A stretch of DNA of 44,785 nucleotides, taken from Magnetococcales bacterium. Lineage in GTDB: Bacteria > Pseudomonadota > Magnetococcia > Magnetococcales > JADFZT01. A program made the translations under genes and the position numbers. Under the pieces are notes generated by a model, which worked only from the letters and a program-made list of their open reading frames with translations, was not told the DNA's origin and did no database searches. Below are positions 3,256-27,408 of the stretch, in pieces. The stretch is from contig JADFZT010000038.1 in assembly GCA_015232395.1 (NCBI GenBank), positions 1 to 44,785 on the forward strand, given 5' to 3'. Each line of letters opens with the position of its first letter. Within the stretch, counting starts at the first letter, position 1.

Positions 3256-3912
3256 TCAGCTGCAAGCCGGGCAACGGGGATGCTTACGAAAGGGTACCTC
3301 CCGACGTATGCCCCGCAAACCATCGATGGTCAACAAGCGACCCAGGAGCGGTTTTCCTTCACCCCTCAGGAGTTTGACTGCTTCCATCGCCATCAGCCAA
3401 CCCAGTTCACCAGCCATGGGGCCCAAAACCCCCTCATCCACACAGCTGCCCCCGGCGACCGGTGGGGGAGCTCCAAACAGGCAACGCAGACAGGGTGAAG
3501 ATCCTGGCACCACACTCATCACCTGCCCCTGAAATCGCACCACCGCCCCATGGACCAAAGGGCGGTTGAGAGCCAGGGCGGCGTCGTTGGCGGCAAAACG
3601 GGTGGCAAAATTATCTGAGCCATCGATGATGACCCGATACCCTTCAGCCACCTCTGAAATACCGGCCACCCCCTCCAGACGTATGGGATGGGTGCGGATG
3701 GTGAGCCCCGGTTGCCGCTGGCTGAGGTGATGCTGACTTTGGGCTACCTTGGATAGACCGATATCGGCTTTTTGGTAGAGCACCTGGCGCTGAAGGTTGG
3801 AGAGAGCCACCGTATCGGCATCGGCCAGCCCCAAACGCTCCACACCCGCTGCGGCAAGAGCCAGGGCAGCTGCACTCCCCAAACCTCCGGCTCCGATCAA
3901 AAGAACATCCAT
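3256..3912 (-). CDS. HesA/MoeB/ThiF-family adenylyltransferase (E1-like), short form
   Basis: E1-like enzyme that would adenylate the C-terminus of a ubiquitin-like sulfur carrier. The protein starts almost directly in the nucleotide loop (LLIGAGGLGS at residues 4-13). It continues with the conserved LADADTVALSNLQRQ segment, DGSDNFATR, a Cys in GGSCVDEGVLGP, and two zinc Cys pairs, CLRC and CPAC. At 218 aa it is shorter than typical MoeB/ThiF (about 250) because the N-terminal helix with the usual RYxRQ motif is absent; a stop codon lies 11 codons upstream in the same frame, so no longer form is possible here. It is 32 bp downstream of the Rrf2 gene and probably cotranscribed with it. Its carrier-protein partner is not evident in the window. 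Confidence 0.85.
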   Translation of the reverse strand: MDVLLIGAGGLGSAAALALAAAGVERLGLADADTVALSNLQRQVLYQKADIGLSKVAQSQHHLSQRQPGLTIRTHPIRLEGVAGISEVAEGYRVIIDGSDNFATRFAANDAALALNRPLVHGAVVRFQGQVMSVVPGSSPCLRCLFGAPPPVAGGSCVDEGVLGPMAGELGWLMAMEAVKLLRGEGKPLLGRLLTIDGLRGIRREVPFRKHPRCPACS

Positions 3913-9719: not shown

Positions 9720-11174
9720 ATGATTGATTCCCGATATGAGATGGTCATTGGACTGGAAGTCCACGTCCAAATGCAGACCCGTTCGAAAATTTTTTGCGGC
9801 TGCTCCACCCAGTTCGGCCAAGGGGCCAACACCCAGATCTGCCCGGTCTGCTCGGGCTTTCCCGGAGTGCTGCCGGTGCTCAACCAGGAAGCCGTGCAGA
9901 TGGCCATCAAGACCGGCATCGCCATCCACGGCCAAGTGCGCCCGGTGAGCGAATTTTCCCGGAAAAACTATTTTTATCCGGATCTGCCCGCAGGCTATCA
10001 AATCACCCAGTTTGAGCTGCCCATCGTCGAACATGGCCACCTGGATCTACACACCGAATCCCGGGGCGCCAAACGGATCGGCATCACCCGCATCCATATG
10101 GAAGTGGATGCGGGAAAATCCCTCCATGAAGGCATCGTCGGCGGCTCCTGGGTGGATCTCAACCGTACCGGCACGCCACTCATGGAGATCGTCTCCGAGC
10201 CGGACATGCGCTCTTCGGCAGAGGCGGGGGAATATCTGAAAAAGCTTCGGGCCATCGTCCGTTATCTGGGGGTGAGCGACGGCAATATGGAGCAGGGCTC
10301 CTTCCGCTGTGATGCCAACGTTTCCGTCCGCCTGAAGGGGGCGGAAAAGTTTGGCACCCGCTGTGAGCTTAAAAACATGAACTCCATCCGCAACGTCATG
10401 CGGGCTATCGAATATGAAGCCGAACGCCACATCGATGTCATTGAATCCGGCGGCCACATCGTTCAGCAAACCCGGCTCTGGGACGCCAACGCCAACCTCA
10501 GCCGCCCCATGCGAGGCAAGGAAGAGGCTCACGACTATCGCTATTTTCCCGAACCGGATCTGCCCCCCCTGCACCTGACCGAAGAGCGCATCGAGACCAT
10601 TGCCAGCTCGATGCCAGAGCTTCCAGAGACCAAAAAAGAGCGCTTTATCGAGGAGTATGCCCTCTCCGACTATGACGCCGAGGTACTCACCAACAGCCTG
10701 GAGCTGGCGGATTATTTTGAAGCTGTGGCCAGGACTGTGGCGGAAAAAGGCCAGGCCGACCCCAAGGCCGCCGCCAACTGGGTTACGGTGGAACTATTGG
10801 GAGTGCTGAACAAAGAGGGCCTGGAGATCACCCAATCTCCGGTGCCAGCTGCGCATCTGGGCAAGCTCATCTATCTCATCCAAAACAACACCATCTCCGG
10901 CAAGATCGCCAAACAGGTGTTTGCCACCCTGTTCGAAACCGGCAAGGATCCCGAAATCATCGTCTCAGAAAAGGGGCTCAAACAGGTCACCGACTCCTCA
11001 GCCATTGAAGAGGAGGTGGAAAAGGTGCTGGCAGCCAACGCCAAAGAGGTGGAGCTATATCGGGGGGGCAAGACCAAGCTCATCGGCTTTTTCGTAGGCC
11101 AGGTGATGAAGGCCACCCGGGGCAAGGCCAACCCCGGCTTGGTGAATTCAATCCTCAGGCAGAAGCTTGGCTGA
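9720..11174 (+). CDS. gatB: Asp-tRNA(Asn)/Glu-tRNA(Gln) amidotransferase subunit B
   Basis: tRNA-binding kinase-like subunit that phosphorylates the misacylated glutamate or aspartate and accepts ammonia from GatA. It opens with YEMVIGLEVHVQMQT and the zinc cysteines (CGCST and CPVCSG). It continues through SRKNYFYPDLPAGYQI and ends in the helical and YqeY-like tail with TRGKANPGLVNSILRQKLG. The ATG at 9720 gives 484 aa, normal for the family; a TTG 14 codons earlier is possible but unlikely. Its stop codon overlaps the next gene's ATG by one base (TGATG), so the downstream AsmA-like gene is probably translationally coupled to it. Confidence 0.97.
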   Translation: MIDSRYEMVIGLEVHVQMQTRSKIFCGCSTQFGQGANTQICPVCSGFPGVLPVLNQEAVQMAIKTGIAIHGQVRPVSEFSRKNYFYPDLPAGYQITQFELPIVEHGHLDLHTESRGAKRIGITRIHMEVDAGKSLHEGIVGGSWVDLNRTGTPLMEIVSEPDMRSSAEAGEYLKKLRAIVRYLGVSDGNMEQGSFRCDANVSVRLKGAEKFGTRCELKNMNSIRNVMRAIEYEAERHIDVIESGGHIVQQTRLWDANANLSRPMRGKEEAHDYRYFPEPDLPPLHLTEERIETIASSMPELPETKKERFIEEYALSDYDAEVLTNSLELADYFEAVARTVAEKGQADPKAAANWVTVELLGVLNKEGLEITQSPVPAAHLGKLIYLIQNNTISGKIAKQVFATLFETGKDPEIIVSEKGLKQVTDSSAIEEEVEKVLAANAKEVELYRGGKTKLIGFFVGQVMKATRGKANPGLVNSILRQKLG

Positions 11175-13408
11175 TGGCTACCCGCCCCAGGGCTACGATG
11201 GCTGCCGGCTTGTTGCTGGCAGCGCTGATTGGTGGTTTTCTCTATGTCGCGAGAACTGTGGATCTCTCGGAACATCGCGGGCGGATCATCCAGATTTTGG
11301 AGGCGGTGACCAGCCATAAGATCTCTCTAAAATCGGTCCAGTGGGCTCCGACGGGGGGGCTTACCACTCTGGAGCTGACTGAATTTGAAGTCCACGCCCT
11401 GGATCCTTCAGAACCGCCGGTTTTGCAGGTAAATCAAGCTTTTCTCGGCATCAGCCCCACCACCTTTTTCCACAAAAAACTAAAAATCTCCTCCATCACC
11501 CTGGTGGCGCCCCAAATCAATATCGTCAAACGGGGGGGAACCAAGCTCATCAAACGGGCCCAGGAAACAGCAGAACTGAGCAATCTCAAGATGAACCGGG
11601 AGCTTGGCTTGGGATTGACCGATCTGGCTGTGGGTGGGGTGACCATCCGGGACGGCATCCTGACCATTATCGACTGGGAGCACCCCGACGGTCAGACCCT
11701 CATTTTTGATCACCTGACCATGCGGGTTCACGATCTTTCTCCCCACGGGGCCTCCCCCCTCACCGCCTCGGCCCGTTTTCAATCGGTTCCCTTTACGGTC
11801 AACGGCCAGGTCGGCCCGCTGCCCAAATCACTGGATCCCAAGGAAATGCCGGTGATGTTGAGCCTGGAGGCCAAATCCCTGGGGCTTTCCCATCTTTCCG
11901 ACACCATCCCGAATATCCCCATGGACCCCCGGGCGGCCCGGAGCTATTTTTCAACGATGTTTCACGGCTCCCTGACGGAGGGATTGCAAACCAGCTCCTG
12001 GCTGGAGCTGGACCGCTTGGTTTTAACGCCGTCAGAAATCCCACCCGATCAGGCGCACTCCAACGAACCGATCCCCTTGGATATCGCGGTGCGGCAAAAA
12101 TCGCTCCTGAAGTTGAAGGATGCGGTGCCGACCCTGGAGATCCAGGAGCTGTTTGTCTATCTGGATGGATCCCCCCTCCTGGACGTCAAGGGACAGATGG
12201 GTTGGGATCAGACCCGGCAGCTCGATCTGACCCTGGTCACCTTGGATTCGGTGGGCTTTGACCGTTTTCCCCTGCCCTACAGCTTTCCCCTTTCGGGCAA
12301 CAGCCCGGACGGCATGGCCCACATCAAGGGGGAGTGGCCCCAGAGTGTGGTAGTGGATGCCAACCTGGATTTGACCCGCCCGGCCATCGCCTGGCCCGTC
12401 TCAGCCACCGGCCCCTCCCCGATCCAAAAGAAAGCCGGAATTCCCCTTTCAGCCCAAGCCAAATTCGGCATTTCCCATGGCAGCATCACCCTTTACGAAA
12501 CCGCCTTCACCCGCCCCAGCGTTCCTGACAACCGTCTTGAATTGGCGGGTCCGCTCTGGCCTGTGGCCAATTTTGACGCCAGCGGCAAATGGGATCTGGC
12601 GCTCTTGGCCGACTATTTCCCCGTCGCCATCCCCTGGGATGTGGAGGGCTTGACCCAGGTGGCGGTGCGCATCGAAGGAGGACAGGGGCAGCCCCTCTTG
12701 GCTTCAGGAAAATTAACAGCCAAACGCCATCGTTTTGGTCCCCTCACCCTGCAACAGGTCACTCTCCCCTTCAGACTGGAAAAGGATCGCCTGCACCTGC
12801 GGCAGGTCCAGGCTGAAATGGGTGGCGGATTGCTGGAAGCAACCATCGTGGTGGATCAACTGGAAAGCGACCCGGTTTACAACGCCCTTGTCGCTCTCTC
12901 GGGCACCTCTCTGGAACGCTTGGCACTCTTCCCCTTCCAGGATCGTTTTAAATTGGAGGGGCTGCTCTTTGGTCAGGGCAGCGTGATGGGGGCATTGGAC
13001 CGGGAGCTGATTCCAACACGACCTTTTTCCGGTCAGGCCAGCCTCAGGCTGGAGCCGGGTCGAGCGGAAGGATTGGATGGAGCGGTCTTTTTGAGCCCCA
13101 TATTGGATGGCACTTCTCTGTCATCAAAGAAAAAAAGCTTTTTCTGGAATCGTTTAGAGACCGATCTGATATTTCAAAACGATCACCTCACCTTCCAGGA
13201 TCTCACCATCGATGCCGGTGGGTTACATATTCGGGGTGAGGGGGGCAAACGCGAGGCAGACAAAAAGAAAAAAAATGATCAGGACCACTACTGGTTTCAG
13301 CTGATGGTAGAGCCGGAATGGCTGGCCACCCCCCCTTCCCCCATCGAAGTGGAAGGCCCCCTGGAAAAACTCATCATGCGCACCATCGCTGTCTCTCCCG
13401 AACCCTGA
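11174..13408 (+). CDS. AsmA-like/DUF748-type envelope protein
   Basis: A 744-aa protein with one N-terminal transmembrane anchor (MAAGLLLAALIGGFLYVA, about residues 9-26) and a long beta-rich periplasmic part. The repeated pattern of short amphipathic strands (for example FDHLTMRVHDLS, LDVKGQMGWD, FQDLTIDAGGLHIRGEGG) is that of AsmA/TamB/YhdP-like proteins, thought to form lipid-conducting grooves between the membranes. The blocks before the C-terminus resemble the DUF748/AsmA C-terminal layout, but the exact subfamily cannot be fixed by eye. It starts inside the gatB stop codon. A structured inverted-repeat element begins 26 bp downstream. The function in phospholipid transport or outer-membrane assembly is inferred from fold type only. 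Confidence 0.7.
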   Translation: MATRPRATMAAGLLLAALIGGFLYVARTVDLSEHRGRIIQILEAVTSHKISLKSVQWAPTGGLTTLELTEFEVHALDPSEPPVLQVNQAFLGISPTTFFHKKLKISSITLVAPQINIVKRGGTKLIKRAQETAELSNLKMNRELGLGLTDLAVGGVTIRDGILTIIDWEHPDGQTLIFDHLTMRVHDLSPHGASPLTASARFQSVPFTVNGQVGPLPKSLDPKEMPVMLSLEAKSLGLSHLSDTIPNIPMDPRAARSYFSTMFHGSLTEGLQTSSWLELDRLVLTPSEIPPDQAHSNEPIPLDIAVRQKSLLKLKDAVPTLEIQELFVYLDGSPLLDVKGQMGWDQTRQLDLTLVTLDSVGFDRFPLPYSFPLSGNSPDGMAHIKGEWPQSVVVDANLDLTRPAIAWPVSATGPSPIQKKAGIPLSAQAKFGISHGSITLYETAFTRPSVPDNRLELAGPLWPVANFDASGKWDLALLADYFPVAIPWDVEGLTQVAVRIEGGQGQPLLASGKLTAKRHRFGPLTLQQVTLPFRLEKDRLHLRQVQAEMGGGLLEATIVVDQLESDPVYNALVALSGTSLERLALFPFQDRFKLEGLLFGQGSVMGALDRELIPTRPFSGQASLRLEPGRAEGLDGAVFLSPILDGTSLSSKKKSFFWNRLETDLIFQNDHLTFQDLTIDAGGLHIRGEGGKREADKKKKNDQDHYWFQLMVEPEWLATPPSPIEVEGPLEKLIMRTIAVSPEP

Positions 13409-13433: not shown

Positions 13434-13659
13434 TATAGTCAATCCAAACCAAAATCGGACAGAATCCTCCAAGAGCCAAAGACAAGGCCAAGACCTTGAG
13501 GGCTCCGCCCTCAAACTCCTCGGGGGGGAAAAGACAAGGTCAACGGCCTAAAACCTTGGGCTCTGCCCAAACCCGCCAAAGGGTCCAGACCCTTTGGAAT
13601 CCCGACAAAATCACGTTGTGATTTTGTCATGTGTCTGATTTTGGTTTGGTATGTCTATA
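13434..13659. mobile_element. MITE-like element with 28-bp terminal inverted repeats
   Basis: The 28-bp ends, 13434-13461 and 13632-13659, are inverted copies matching at 24 of 28 positions; both outer ends read TATAG inward and share the core CCAAACCAAAATC. Inside lie four perfect hairpins: 13496-13514 (8-bp stem), 13556-13570 (6 bp), 13576-13597 (9 bp) and 13604-13628 (11 bp). Two related sub-units, each beginning AAAGACAAGG, are arranged in tandem. There is no coding potential. The structure is that of a non-autonomous miniature transposon; the outer TA bases could be a target duplication of the Tc1/IS630 type. It may also act as a two-way terminator between the convergent flanking genes. 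Confidence 0.7.
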
Positions 13660-13663
13660 TTTT

Positions 13664-15454
13664 TCAACGAAGAAGTTTTTTAATCACATCCGGGCGGTTG
13701 TAGGTTTTGCCAAAGCTTGAGGAGGGGTGAAAATAGGCGGCTCTCCCCCGGCCCCGATTGACATGCCAGCCGATCAGCTCCTCAGCCCCGGGGGAGGCGG
13801 CGAAATATTTTTGGGGAGTCCAAACCACCCAGCGTTTTTTATCGTAGTGGGGGAAAAAAGCCAGCAGCTCCTTTTGATGACCGATCCGAAACCAACGGAT
13901 GGTGCCATCCCCAAAAGCCGCTACCGCCAGCTTGCCATCTTGGCTGAGGTTGACCCCCCAGGTGGGGCCAGGGGCGGCATATTTCCACATTTCCCGGCCA
14001 TTGCGGGCATATAGACGCAGGTAAAAAGAGCTGCCCAGCAGAAAAAAGCGGCCATTGGGAGCGATGGCAACAGAGTGCACCACCTCGTTGCGCTTCAACT
14101 CCAACTCCCGACCATTGACGTGAACCACCTTGCCCTTATCCAGCCCCTTGATCTCAACCTTCGGATGTTGGGTCAAAGGCGCCAGCCAGCCCTTCTGGCC
14201 CTTGGCTTGGTTCTTCTGATTTCCAGACAACCCGCTGGCCTTTGTCTCGCCCCCACCCCCGCCCTTGCCCTGTTGCAGCTGAAGATGGCGTACCGAAAAA
14301 TGGGCCGGGCTCCCACCCCCCGGGTCATAGCCAAACTGAACCTGGGTCGCATCAGGAGAGATCAGCAAACGCTGACCGATTCTCTGAAAAGCCGCCGTCG
14401 CCCGGCCATTATGGAAAACAGGAAACCCTTGGGCATCAAGAAGCCCCACCGCCGGATCAGCCGAAGCGTAGGCCACCCTACCGTTGGGCAGAGCCAAAAT
14501 GTGGGTGATGGTGGACTTGGAAGCTGGAAAGTCCACGAAGGCCCCCACCCCCCGCTCACTCCAACGCCGCACCGCTCGCATTCCCTTGGACCAGTGGCTC
14601 CCCGCCGCCAAAATGGAACGGCCATCCCGGGACCACGCCACCGCCCGCAGGTTTCGGGTGACCCCCGTGGTGTCCGGCACCTGTAAGGCCTTCAAATCCT
14701 TACCGGAAAAAACCATTATTCGGGCCAAATTGCGAAACCCCACCAAAATCCGCCGACCATCCGGAGAAAACTGGGCTGAATAGGGCTTGCCCTTGCCCAA
14801 ATCTTTTTTGGCACTCAGGCGATAGCTCGCATCATAGAGGCGTAGAAAACCATCCTCACTGGCGGTCACCAGGCGGCCCGAAGGATCAAAATCGACCCAG
14901 TTGACATAATCCCCATAGCTCTTGTCCCGAGCCAGCAAGGCCCCATCCGCTGCCCGATAAACCCGAAGCTCACTCTCCTTGGCTGTCACCGCTGCCAGAT
15001 AGTTGCCACTCCTGGAAAAAGCCAGATGGCTCACCACCCCCGGCAGATTGGGAATGCGCCGGGTGATCTCACCGCTTTTAAAATCAAACAGATAAATGGA
15101 TATTTTTTGTTCCCACGCCCAACCGGTCAACCCTCCCACAGCCACCTTTGCGCCATCCGGGGAGACCGCCACCGCAAAGAGCTTGCCCTCCGCCCCCTGA
15201 CCGATAGGCACCCGCAACACCTTGAGCAGCCGTCCATCCCTGAGAGACCAAATCCGCAGGGTTTTATCCCCCCCCACCGAGGCCAGATAACGCCCGCGAT
15301 AATCGGTGGCGATGCGCCAGACAATACCCGCATGCATCTCCCCTTCAATGCGGGGCATGGGCGATTTGGCCACCTGGCCATACTCTCCCCAAGCCGCTTG
15401 GAAAGGGAGCAGGCAGAGCAGAGCAAAGGCCAAAAACCGGAATCCGCGAGGCAT
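13664..15454 (-). CDS. Secreted WD40 beta-propeller protein, probably C-terminally shortened
   Basis: A 596-aa protein with a signal peptide (MPRGFRFLAFALLCLLPFQA, cleavage probably after AWG) and about seven or more WD40-type blades, for example GGDKTLRIWSL, VAVSPDGAKVAVGG, SEDGFLRLYDA and FGDGTIRWF. A Gly/Lys-rich linker interrupts the propeller near residue 400. The C-terminus carries a conserved segment (ASPGAEELIGWHVNRG, then FHPSSSFGKTYNRPDVI). I know this segment from WD40 proteins where it is followed by a caspase-like (peptidase C14) domain. Here the protein stops right after it, and the stop codon is only 4 bp from the inverted-repeat element. Start at 15454 chosen from the signal peptide and an AGG upstream. 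Function unknown; a periplasmic protein-protein platform is a guess. Confidence 0.85.
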   Translation of the reverse strand: MPRGFRFLAFALLCLLPFQAAWGEYGQVAKSPMPRIEGEMHAGIVWRIATDYRGRYLASVGGDKTLRIWSLRDGRLLKVLRVPIGQGAEGKLFAVAVSPDGAKVAVGGLTGWAWEQKISIYLFDFKSGEITRRIPNLPGVVSHLAFSRSGNYLAAVTAKESELRVYRAADGALLARDKSYGDYVNWVDFDPSGRLVTASEDGFLRLYDASYRLSAKKDLGKGKPYSAQFSPDGRRILVGFRNLARIMVFSGKDLKALQVPDTTGVTRNLRAVAWSRDGRSILAAGSHWSKGMRAVRRWSERGVGAFVDFPASKSTITHILALPNGRVAYASADPAVGLLDAQGFPVFHNGRATAAFQRIGQRLLISPDATQVQFGYDPGGGSPAHFSVRHLQLQQGKGGGGGETKASGLSGNQKNQAKGQKGWLAPLTQHPKVEIKGLDKGKVVHVNGRELELKRNEVVHSVAIAPNGRFFLLGSSFYLRLYARNGREMWKYAAPGPTWGVNLSQDGKLAVAAFGDGTIRWFRIGHQKELLAFFPHYDKKRWVVWTPQKYFAASPGAEELIGWHVNRGRGRAAYFHPSSSFGKTYNRPDVIKKLLR

Positions 15455-15762
15455 ATCGACCTGGCTGATAAAAAAACGGGGTTGGATTATAGAAAGGATT
15501 TTTCTGGAAAATGGTGCCATGGACCGACTCCGGATGGTTGCCATGGTAGGCCTGACAAAAGGCCCGGGGGGAGTGGCTGACGGCTACCTGCCATCTTTTC
15601 AGAACCACCCTGTTTCAGCCCCTTGCAGCCTCATTATTCATCAGGCTGACCGAGCTTCCACAAGCGGGCTCATTTTTTTTTCAATCATCCCATCAGCCCA
15701 GTCATAGACAGAGCCAGGGAGATAAAAAAAGCCGAAAACAAACCAGCCTTCCAAGACACAAA
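15455..15762. other. 308-bp gap with no recognisable gene
   Basis: Separates the WD40 gene from the exonuclease gene on the same strand. I see no gene, tRNA or strong hairpin. Minus-strand T-runs (for example near 15724-15730) just after the exonuclease stop codon could help end transcription. The sequence next to the WD40 start is A/T-rich and may hold its promoter. Confidence 0.4.
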
Positions 15763-26353: not shown

Positions 26354-26385
26354 TCCCAAACTATAATCATCCCAAACTATAATCA
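26354..26385 (+). repeat. Perfect 2 x 16-bp tandem duplication at the amgK stop codon
   Basis: The unit TCCCAAACTATAATCA occurs twice without interruption (26354-26369 and 26370-26385). The second copy contains the amgK stop codon, so the duplication gives a repeated TGA just after the gene. Perfect identity suggests a recent slippage event. The unit contains TATAAT on the plus strand, but no -35 box was found. Confidence 0.8.
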
Positions 26386-27408
26386 GGCCGCCTCCAAAGG
26401 GGCGTAGCGATCCAGGAGATGCCCCAGATCGGAAAGCTCCGGGTAGCGCTCCAGGGTCTCTCGCACATAGCCCATGGTGCGGGGAATGTCGTTGAGATAG
26501 CCATGCTTGCCATCCCGCAACGATAGACGGCCAAAAATACCGATGGCTTTCATGTTTCGCTGGATCGCCATCCAGTCAAAATCCCGCTCAAACCGCTCCC
26601 AGGAGGGCTCATACCCCAGCCGCGCCCCGGCTCCGGCCAACCACTGGGTCATCACCCGACGGCGAAAATCGCCATCCCAGGCCACATAGCAGTCCCGCAG
26701 CAGGCTTGCCAGATCGTAGGTGACCGGACCCATCACGGCATCCTGAAAGTCGATCACCCCCACAGCGGCCGCGCCCCCCTCACCCCGCCACATGAGATTG
26801 CGACAGTGATAGTCCCGATGGACAAACACCTCAGGCTGGCTTAAGGCTTGATCCAACAGAAGCTGAAAAATCTCTTCGAATCGATCCCGGTCCGGGGAAG
26901 AGATAGGCGTTTTGCGGATCCCTTCCACATACCAGTCGGTAAAAAGAGCCAACTCCCGCCGCAACATGGGCCGATCATAGGTGCGGCGATGGGCAATGGA
27001 GCTGCTGTCGTTGGGGGTGGCCTGGATATCCAAAAGGGTGGTGACCGCTTCCTGGTAGAGCACGCCAGGATCAACCCCCTCGGCCAATGCCTTGAGATAG
27101 GTCACATCCCCCAAATCCTCCAGCAACAGGTGGCCATCTCCCAAACGTGCCTCATGGATCCGGGGAACCGGCACCCCATGAGTGGCCAAAAAACGGGCAA
27201 TATCTACAAACGGGCTGGAATCCTCCTTATCCGGCGGGGCATCCATAAAGATAAACGGCCCCCGCTGGGAGTGAACCCGATAATAGCTGCGAAAAGAGGC
27301 ATCTTCGCTGGCCCGAGCGACCTTAAAATCGGCCCCGAAAATCTCCCCCAAAAAGGCATTCGCTTCAGGTGTCAGGGCAACCTCTGCCCCACCAGAACTG
27401 GAACTCAT
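26383..27408 (-). CDS. amgK: N-acetylmuramate/N-acetylglucosamine kinase
   Basis: Anomeric sugar kinase of the aminoglycoside-phosphotransferase (APH) fold. It phosphorylates MurNAc and GlcNAc at C1 for peptidoglycan recycling and works with MurU. It has the APH sequence ASFRSYYRVHSQRGPFIFMDAPP near the N-terminus, the catalytic loop FVHRDYHCRNLMW and the metal site GVIDFQDAVMGPVTYDLASLL. The 341-aa length agrees with characterised AmgK. Start 27408 is chosen for AAGGAGAG just upstream; longer in-frame options exist up to 27519 but add low-complexity sequence. It sits between tsaE and murU, the arrangement seen in pseudomonads and alphaproteobacteria. Confidence 0.93.
   Translation of the reverse strand: MSSSSGGAEVALTPEANAFLGEIFGADFKVARASEDASFRSYYRVHSQRGPFIFMDAPPDKEDSSPFVDIARFLATHGVPVPRIHEARLGDGHLLLEDLGDVTYLKALAEGVDPGVLYQEAVTTLLDIQATPNDSSSIAHRRTYDRPMLRRELALFTDWYVEGIRKTPISSPDRDRFEEIFQLLLDQALSQPEVFVHRDYHCRNLMWRGEGGAAAVGVIDFQDAVMGPVTYDLASLLRDCYVAWDGDFRRRVMTQWLAGAGARLGYEPSWERFERDFDWMAIQRNMKAIGIFGRLSLRDGKHGYLNDIPRTMGYVRETLERYPELSDLGHLLDRYAPLEAA

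Follow-up and report, generated by a model that had tools for sequence, protein, structure and literature searches.

This locus raises the question of whether a short stretch with inverted ends and several internal hairpins is a transposable element and, if it is, what moves it and what its hairpins represent. The window, i.e., the whole stretch of DNA that was analysed, is contig C38 (44,785 nt) of a 4.94-Mb genome in 170 contigs. The detailed locus reading of this genome was carried out on a 0.84-Mb sample that includes the window. Our answer is that the element is very probably a non-autonomous MITE of the IS630 type (Tc1/mariner superfamily), mobilised in trans and carrying a conserved hairpin cargo. 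The features of the element are listed in Table 1.

Table 1. Features of the element and its neighbours in the window
Feature	Position	Strand	Basis or remark
MITE proper, TAG...CTA, 222 bp	13436..13657	+	Copies elsewhere in the genome; boundaries set by the C25 empty-site comparison
Left TA target duplication	13434..13435	.	C25 filled site against array units
Right TA target duplication	13658..13659	.	C25 filled site against array units
Left terminal inverted repeat (with TA), TATAGTCAATCCAAACCAAAATCGGACA	13434..13461	+	Repeat search; same end class beside IS630-type transposases
Right terminal inverted repeat (with TA), TATAGACATACCAAACCAAAATCAGACA	13632..13659	-	Repeat search and end matches
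Hairpin H1, TTGAGGGC(tcc)GCCCTCAA	13496..13514	+	8 bp, perfect
H1 mirror tail, ACTCC (parallel complement of TGAGG)	13515..13519	+	Next base (13520, T) breaks the rule
Hairpin H2, TTGGGC(tct)GCCCAA	13556..13570	+	6 bp, perfect; also dispersed outside the MITE
H2 mirror tail, ACCCG	13571..13575	+	Fits fully, five bases
Hairpin H3, CCAAAGGGTC(ca)GACCCTTTGG	13576..13597	+	10 bp, perfect
Hairpin H4, GACAAAATCAC(gtt)GTGATTTTGTC	13604..13628	+	11 bp, perfect
AsmA/DUF748-like protein, left neighbour	11174..13408	+	3' end toward the MITE, 25-bp gap
WD40-repeat protein, right neighbour	13664..15544	-	3' end toward the MITE, 4-bp gap

The sequence-only reading had described 28-nt inverted ends with an outer TATAG at 13434-13659 and no coding capacity between them. 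Both descriptions were confirmed: the arms 13434-13461 and 13632-13659 are complementary at 24 of 28 positions (86%), each starts with TATAG, and the element contains no ORF of at least 80 aa. On either side, the outermost TA represents the target duplication; therefore, the element proper is 13436-13657, not 13434-13659. The left end (13434-13461) also carries an outward TTGACT, which resembles a -35 box and could make fusion promoters with a flanking -10. The promoter scan returned no site using this TTGACT, and reading the flanks of the C38, C25, C113, and C67 copies by eye revealed no correctly spaced -10. One further weak end-like match (26362-26389, + strand, score 23.2) lies alone, with no partner above threshold in the window.

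The suggested genome-wide search for copies resulted in seven places with an E value of 1e-33 or better. Two copies are complete (C38 and C25:37415-37641) and 97% identical, one is truncated (C1:112916-113072), and four are partial (C96, C93, C113, and C67), all at contig ends. Those on C93, C113, and C67 match exactly 77 bases at the contig end, as expected if the assembler breaks at a repeat, and the C96 match starts 8 bases in. From this contig-end pattern, the real number of elements in the genome is probably five or more. The flanks vary between copies and TATAG is common to them, except on C96, which has TAAAG. Searching with the ends gave seven matches against none in the reversed control, and a scan of the genome collection with the end pattern matched ER1bin7 alone.

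The target site was resolved at the C25 copy, which sits within a tandem hairpin array. The empty array units read ...GGGGGTG-TA-AATCAAGATCAA, and the filled unit reads ...GGGGTATG-TA[TAGACATACC...GGATTGACTA]TA-AATCAAGATCAA (in short form, GGGGTATG-TA[TAGAC...TTGACTA]TA-AATCAA against ...GGGGGTG-TA-AATCAA). Similar units at L010, L017, L019, and L121 end ...TTG-TA-AA. The neighbouring array unit thus supplies an empty site, paralogous rather than orthologous, and the comparison indicates that the target is TA, duplicated upon insertion, as had been anticipated. IS630/Tc1-mariner elements likewise use a TA target that is duplicated (PMC2170065).

A search for an autonomous transposase with matching ends had also been suggested; candidates were found in relatives and none in the genome itself. 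In five related genomes (G007, G009, G023, G030, and G005), IS630-type transposase reading frames are directly preceded by ends of the same class, for instance TATAGTCATTCCAATCTAAAATCTAACA in G007, TATAGCAGTTCCAAACCAAAATCTTACA in G030, and TATAGTCACCGCAAACCATAGCTAGACA in G023. The G007 frame (MSYDIDLRKRAV...), the only one checked against PF01710, matches this model (HTH_Tnp_IS630). The relatives' copies of the transposase are incomplete, truncated at contig ends, or have disrupted frames. In the own genome, a search at E <= 1e-6 and a second search found no IS630-type transposase with matching ends. The five DDE_3 matches of this genome were examined as candidates, and none has matching ends. 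A frame-disrupted IS630-like element on C59 (locus L082) adjoins a TATAG-type end; it was rejected as the partner, as its own inverted repeats are TTACTAAG..AAGTAAGCGACC, not TATAG. With no partner found there, the copies in the genome look orphaned, and a partner may be hidden in an assembly gap. From end similarity, an IS630-family transposase is predicted to recognise these ends. The seven genome places, the natural empty site with its TA duplication, and the same-class ends at the relatives' transposases together support the assignment as a MITE. The outcomes named beforehand as refuting it, lack of a second copy and of any empty site, did not occur.

Inside the ends, the four perfect hairpins H1 to H4 were found where the earlier reading had placed them. 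Its two tandem sub-units fared less well: a direct repeat exists, but it is weak (13460-13491 and 13512-13543; 32 nt at 72%) and is due to the shared spacer AAGACAAGGYCAA. The fold of the element has a z-score of -8.4 on the plus strand and -6.0 on the minus strand, and none of 200 shuffles was equally stable. Taken with the seven genome places and the end matches (7 against 0 in the reversed control), these z-scores show that the structure is beyond chance.

The hairpins are followed by tails that obey a simple rule: read in parallel, each tail complements the 5' arm of its hairpin, i.e., it forms a mirror repeat. Arm/tail examples are TTGAGGGC/ACTCCCG, TTGGGAC/ACCCTG, TTGAGGAC/ACTCCTG, and TTGGAGGC/ACCTCCG. 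Over 61 distinct arm/tail pairs, with kinship ignored, the rule fits 86% of positions versus 70% in permuted pairs, and none of 10,000 permutations was as high; the result was unchanged with one tail per distinct arm. The three segments have a triplex-capable geometry, in full at H2 and over five bases at H1. Together with their tails, H2 and H1 match the geometry of the intrastrand-triplex motifs BoxC/PIT and could fold in the same way. For the BoxC/PIT/TM motifs, PMC4666352 describes triplex formation by oligonucleotides but no stable triplex inside cells.

The cargo is also found in relatives. G018, from another family of Magnetococcales, has MITEs of approximately 245 bp with the series H1-H2-ACCCG-H3-AATCCC-H4 between different ends, and G008 has a MITE with a three-hairpin version. 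The earlier view that the number of stems is unusual is supported, and the four-stem order is kept in relatives. In a stem alignment of two own and six G018 cargoes, 98.9% of the cells were paired versus 28-51% with slid partners. Seven of the 35 pairs changed on both sides, and these lie in all four helices; with two genomes compared, such compensated pairs may represent few evolutionary events. The alignment indicates that the hairpin set is kept paired in the order's relatives despite sequence change. The unit pattern occurs in 26 of 48 Magnetococcales genomes versus 1 of 350 from the rest of the phylum. Additionally, hairpin units separated by AAGATCAA-like spacers form tandem arrays at L136:13304-13776, L021, and L083 near position 3640.

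Two other explanations of the cargo were weighed. Template switching is known to correct imperfect palindromes, and functionless hairpins could owe their perfect pairing to it. In keeping with this, compensated changes are found only in the stems, which are perfect; however, this explanation does not readily account for a single-stranded tail that is a mirror copy of the stem, nor for the conserved hairpin order and linkers between genomes. We consider it possible but rather unlikely. Somewhat doubtful, too, is the view that the MITE picked up, once and by chance, a piece of the order's dispersed hairpin repeats, so that ends and hairpins are two unrelated things. Many hairpin units do occur without these ends, for instance as tandem arrays on contigs C36 and C6 and as numerous copies in G028, where the loci read show no end in the vicinity. 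Against a single pickup, the four-hairpin order recurs in the G018 MITEs with different ends and the three-hairpin version in G008; therefore, the partnership of ends and hairpins would be old or repeated.

The position of the copies bears on a further explanation, namely that the hairpins form a terminator or attenuator cassette kept at gene 3' ends to end transcription on both sides. Neighbouring ORFs were called by length, and Pfam matches back all eight own-genome neighbours. In six own-genome copies, the 3' end of the neighbour faces the element at all eight determinable sides; at the truncated C1 copy, this holds for one of two neighbours. In the relatives, gene 3' ends point toward the element at 15 of 21 sides. 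Copies that lie between converging genes or at the 3' ends of genes would fit a terminator; yet selection against promoter or gene insertions gives an equal positional bias, and the simplest cause is that harmful insertions are removed by selection. The terminator activity suggested earlier found no support, as a hairpin with a T-run occurs on neither strand (0 versus 1.2 expected by chance), and an earlier study cited in PMC4666352 found a related E. coli motif to be without promoter or terminator activity. This explanation is thus improbable. The RNA processing suggested alongside it is a plausible, putative role that fits the stable fold. A structured non-coding RNA or riboregulator duplicated by recombination, with no transposon, would share the stable fold and compensated stems but is highly improbable, given no Rfam match at gathering score in the window, the precise TATAG boundaries with TA duplication, and the TA empty site that refutes it for the C25 copy.

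For the trans-mobilised MITE, the following course is proposed. An IS630-family transposase acting in trans would bind the 28-bp ends and excise the element, which would then insert at a TA, the TA being duplicated; the ends and the duplication are observed, and the transposase would supply the action. The cargo is the series of four GC-rich hairpins conserved among the order's MITEs, with the mirror tails allowing an intrastrand triplex on the single strand, fully at H2 and over five bases at H1. The copies lie mainly downstream of genes in this small sample, probably since selection removes insertions elsewhere. If transcribed by read-through, the element would fold as a single long terminal stem enclosing the hairpins, and this may alter the stability of the mRNA 3' end.

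Several known systems resemble the element in part. RUP of Streptococcus pneumoniae, a MITE of IS630-Spn1, is likewise small and non-coding, with IS630-like ends and a TA target (PMC2229807). However, RUP has 107 bp against 226 bp here, a four-hairpin cargo is unreported for it, and the partner transposase of the present element has been found in related genomes alone. The Correia/NEMIS elements of Neisseria are alike in TA termini, similar inverted-end length, and a stable RNA fold (PMC2229807, PMC10969869); the comparison covered ends and fold. For Correia elements, there is evidence on promoters, IHF, and RNase III, whereas ours is known from sequence alone. In the BoxC/PIT/TM motifs, too, a mirror-related third strand comes after a hairpin, and these motifs are likewise GC-rich and dispersed. 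By inspection, our hairpins do not follow the TM(ECO) pattern, 5'-CCCTCNCCC N3-6 GGGNGAGGG N3 GGGNGAGGG, from which they differ in strand order and sequence and in having shorter stems; the available part of the paper contains no report of these motifs as MITE cargo (PMC4666352). ISY100 and IS630-family insertion sequences have the same TA target and duplication (PMC2170065), whereas the present element lacks a gene for a transposase. REP/BIME and pneumococcal BOX are alike as dispersed palindromes in modular arrays; unlike them, the hairpins here have no GTAG or CGTC tag, and IS630-type ends bound the element.

Other repeats of the genome have related ends. A second MITE family of approximately 244 bp with the same end class contains a head-to-head pair of CGTC-1 REPs (L114, L120, L130, L134, L137, L142, and L149), and this family has no 3'-end bias (8 of 14 sides). 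The 0.84-Mb sample contains 13 CGTC-1-like REPs; every one adjoins an end of this class, nine are enclosed by a pair of ends, and in the whole genome 94 of 122 have a TATAG 25-55 bases upstream. As a general rule for CGTC REPs, carriage by TATAG-ended MITEs was rejected, as the count is 26 of 245 in G009 and other REP-rich genomes are at or near chance. A 140-bp element at L144:11061-11200 has TATAG ends around the repeat GATGCGGTTCGCG...CATCCTACG, which also occurs elsewhere in the genome.

More broadly, it is conceivable, though we regard it as speculative and unlikely, that IS630-type MITEs act as vehicles by which triplex-capable hairpin modules under selection reach the 3' ends of genes across Magnetococcales, with the modules rather than the ends being conserved and acting on the single strand in replication or transcription. 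The element links transposase-dependent MITEs with dispersed structured palindromes of unknown spread mode, which are usually handled separately. The authors who described the CGTC REPs found no dedicated transposase for them (PMC3733652). In this genome, the MITEs of this end class carry triplex-capable hairpins in one family and CGTC REPs in another; with both cargoes on MITE ends of the same class, the spread of palindromes becomes testable in at least one lineage.
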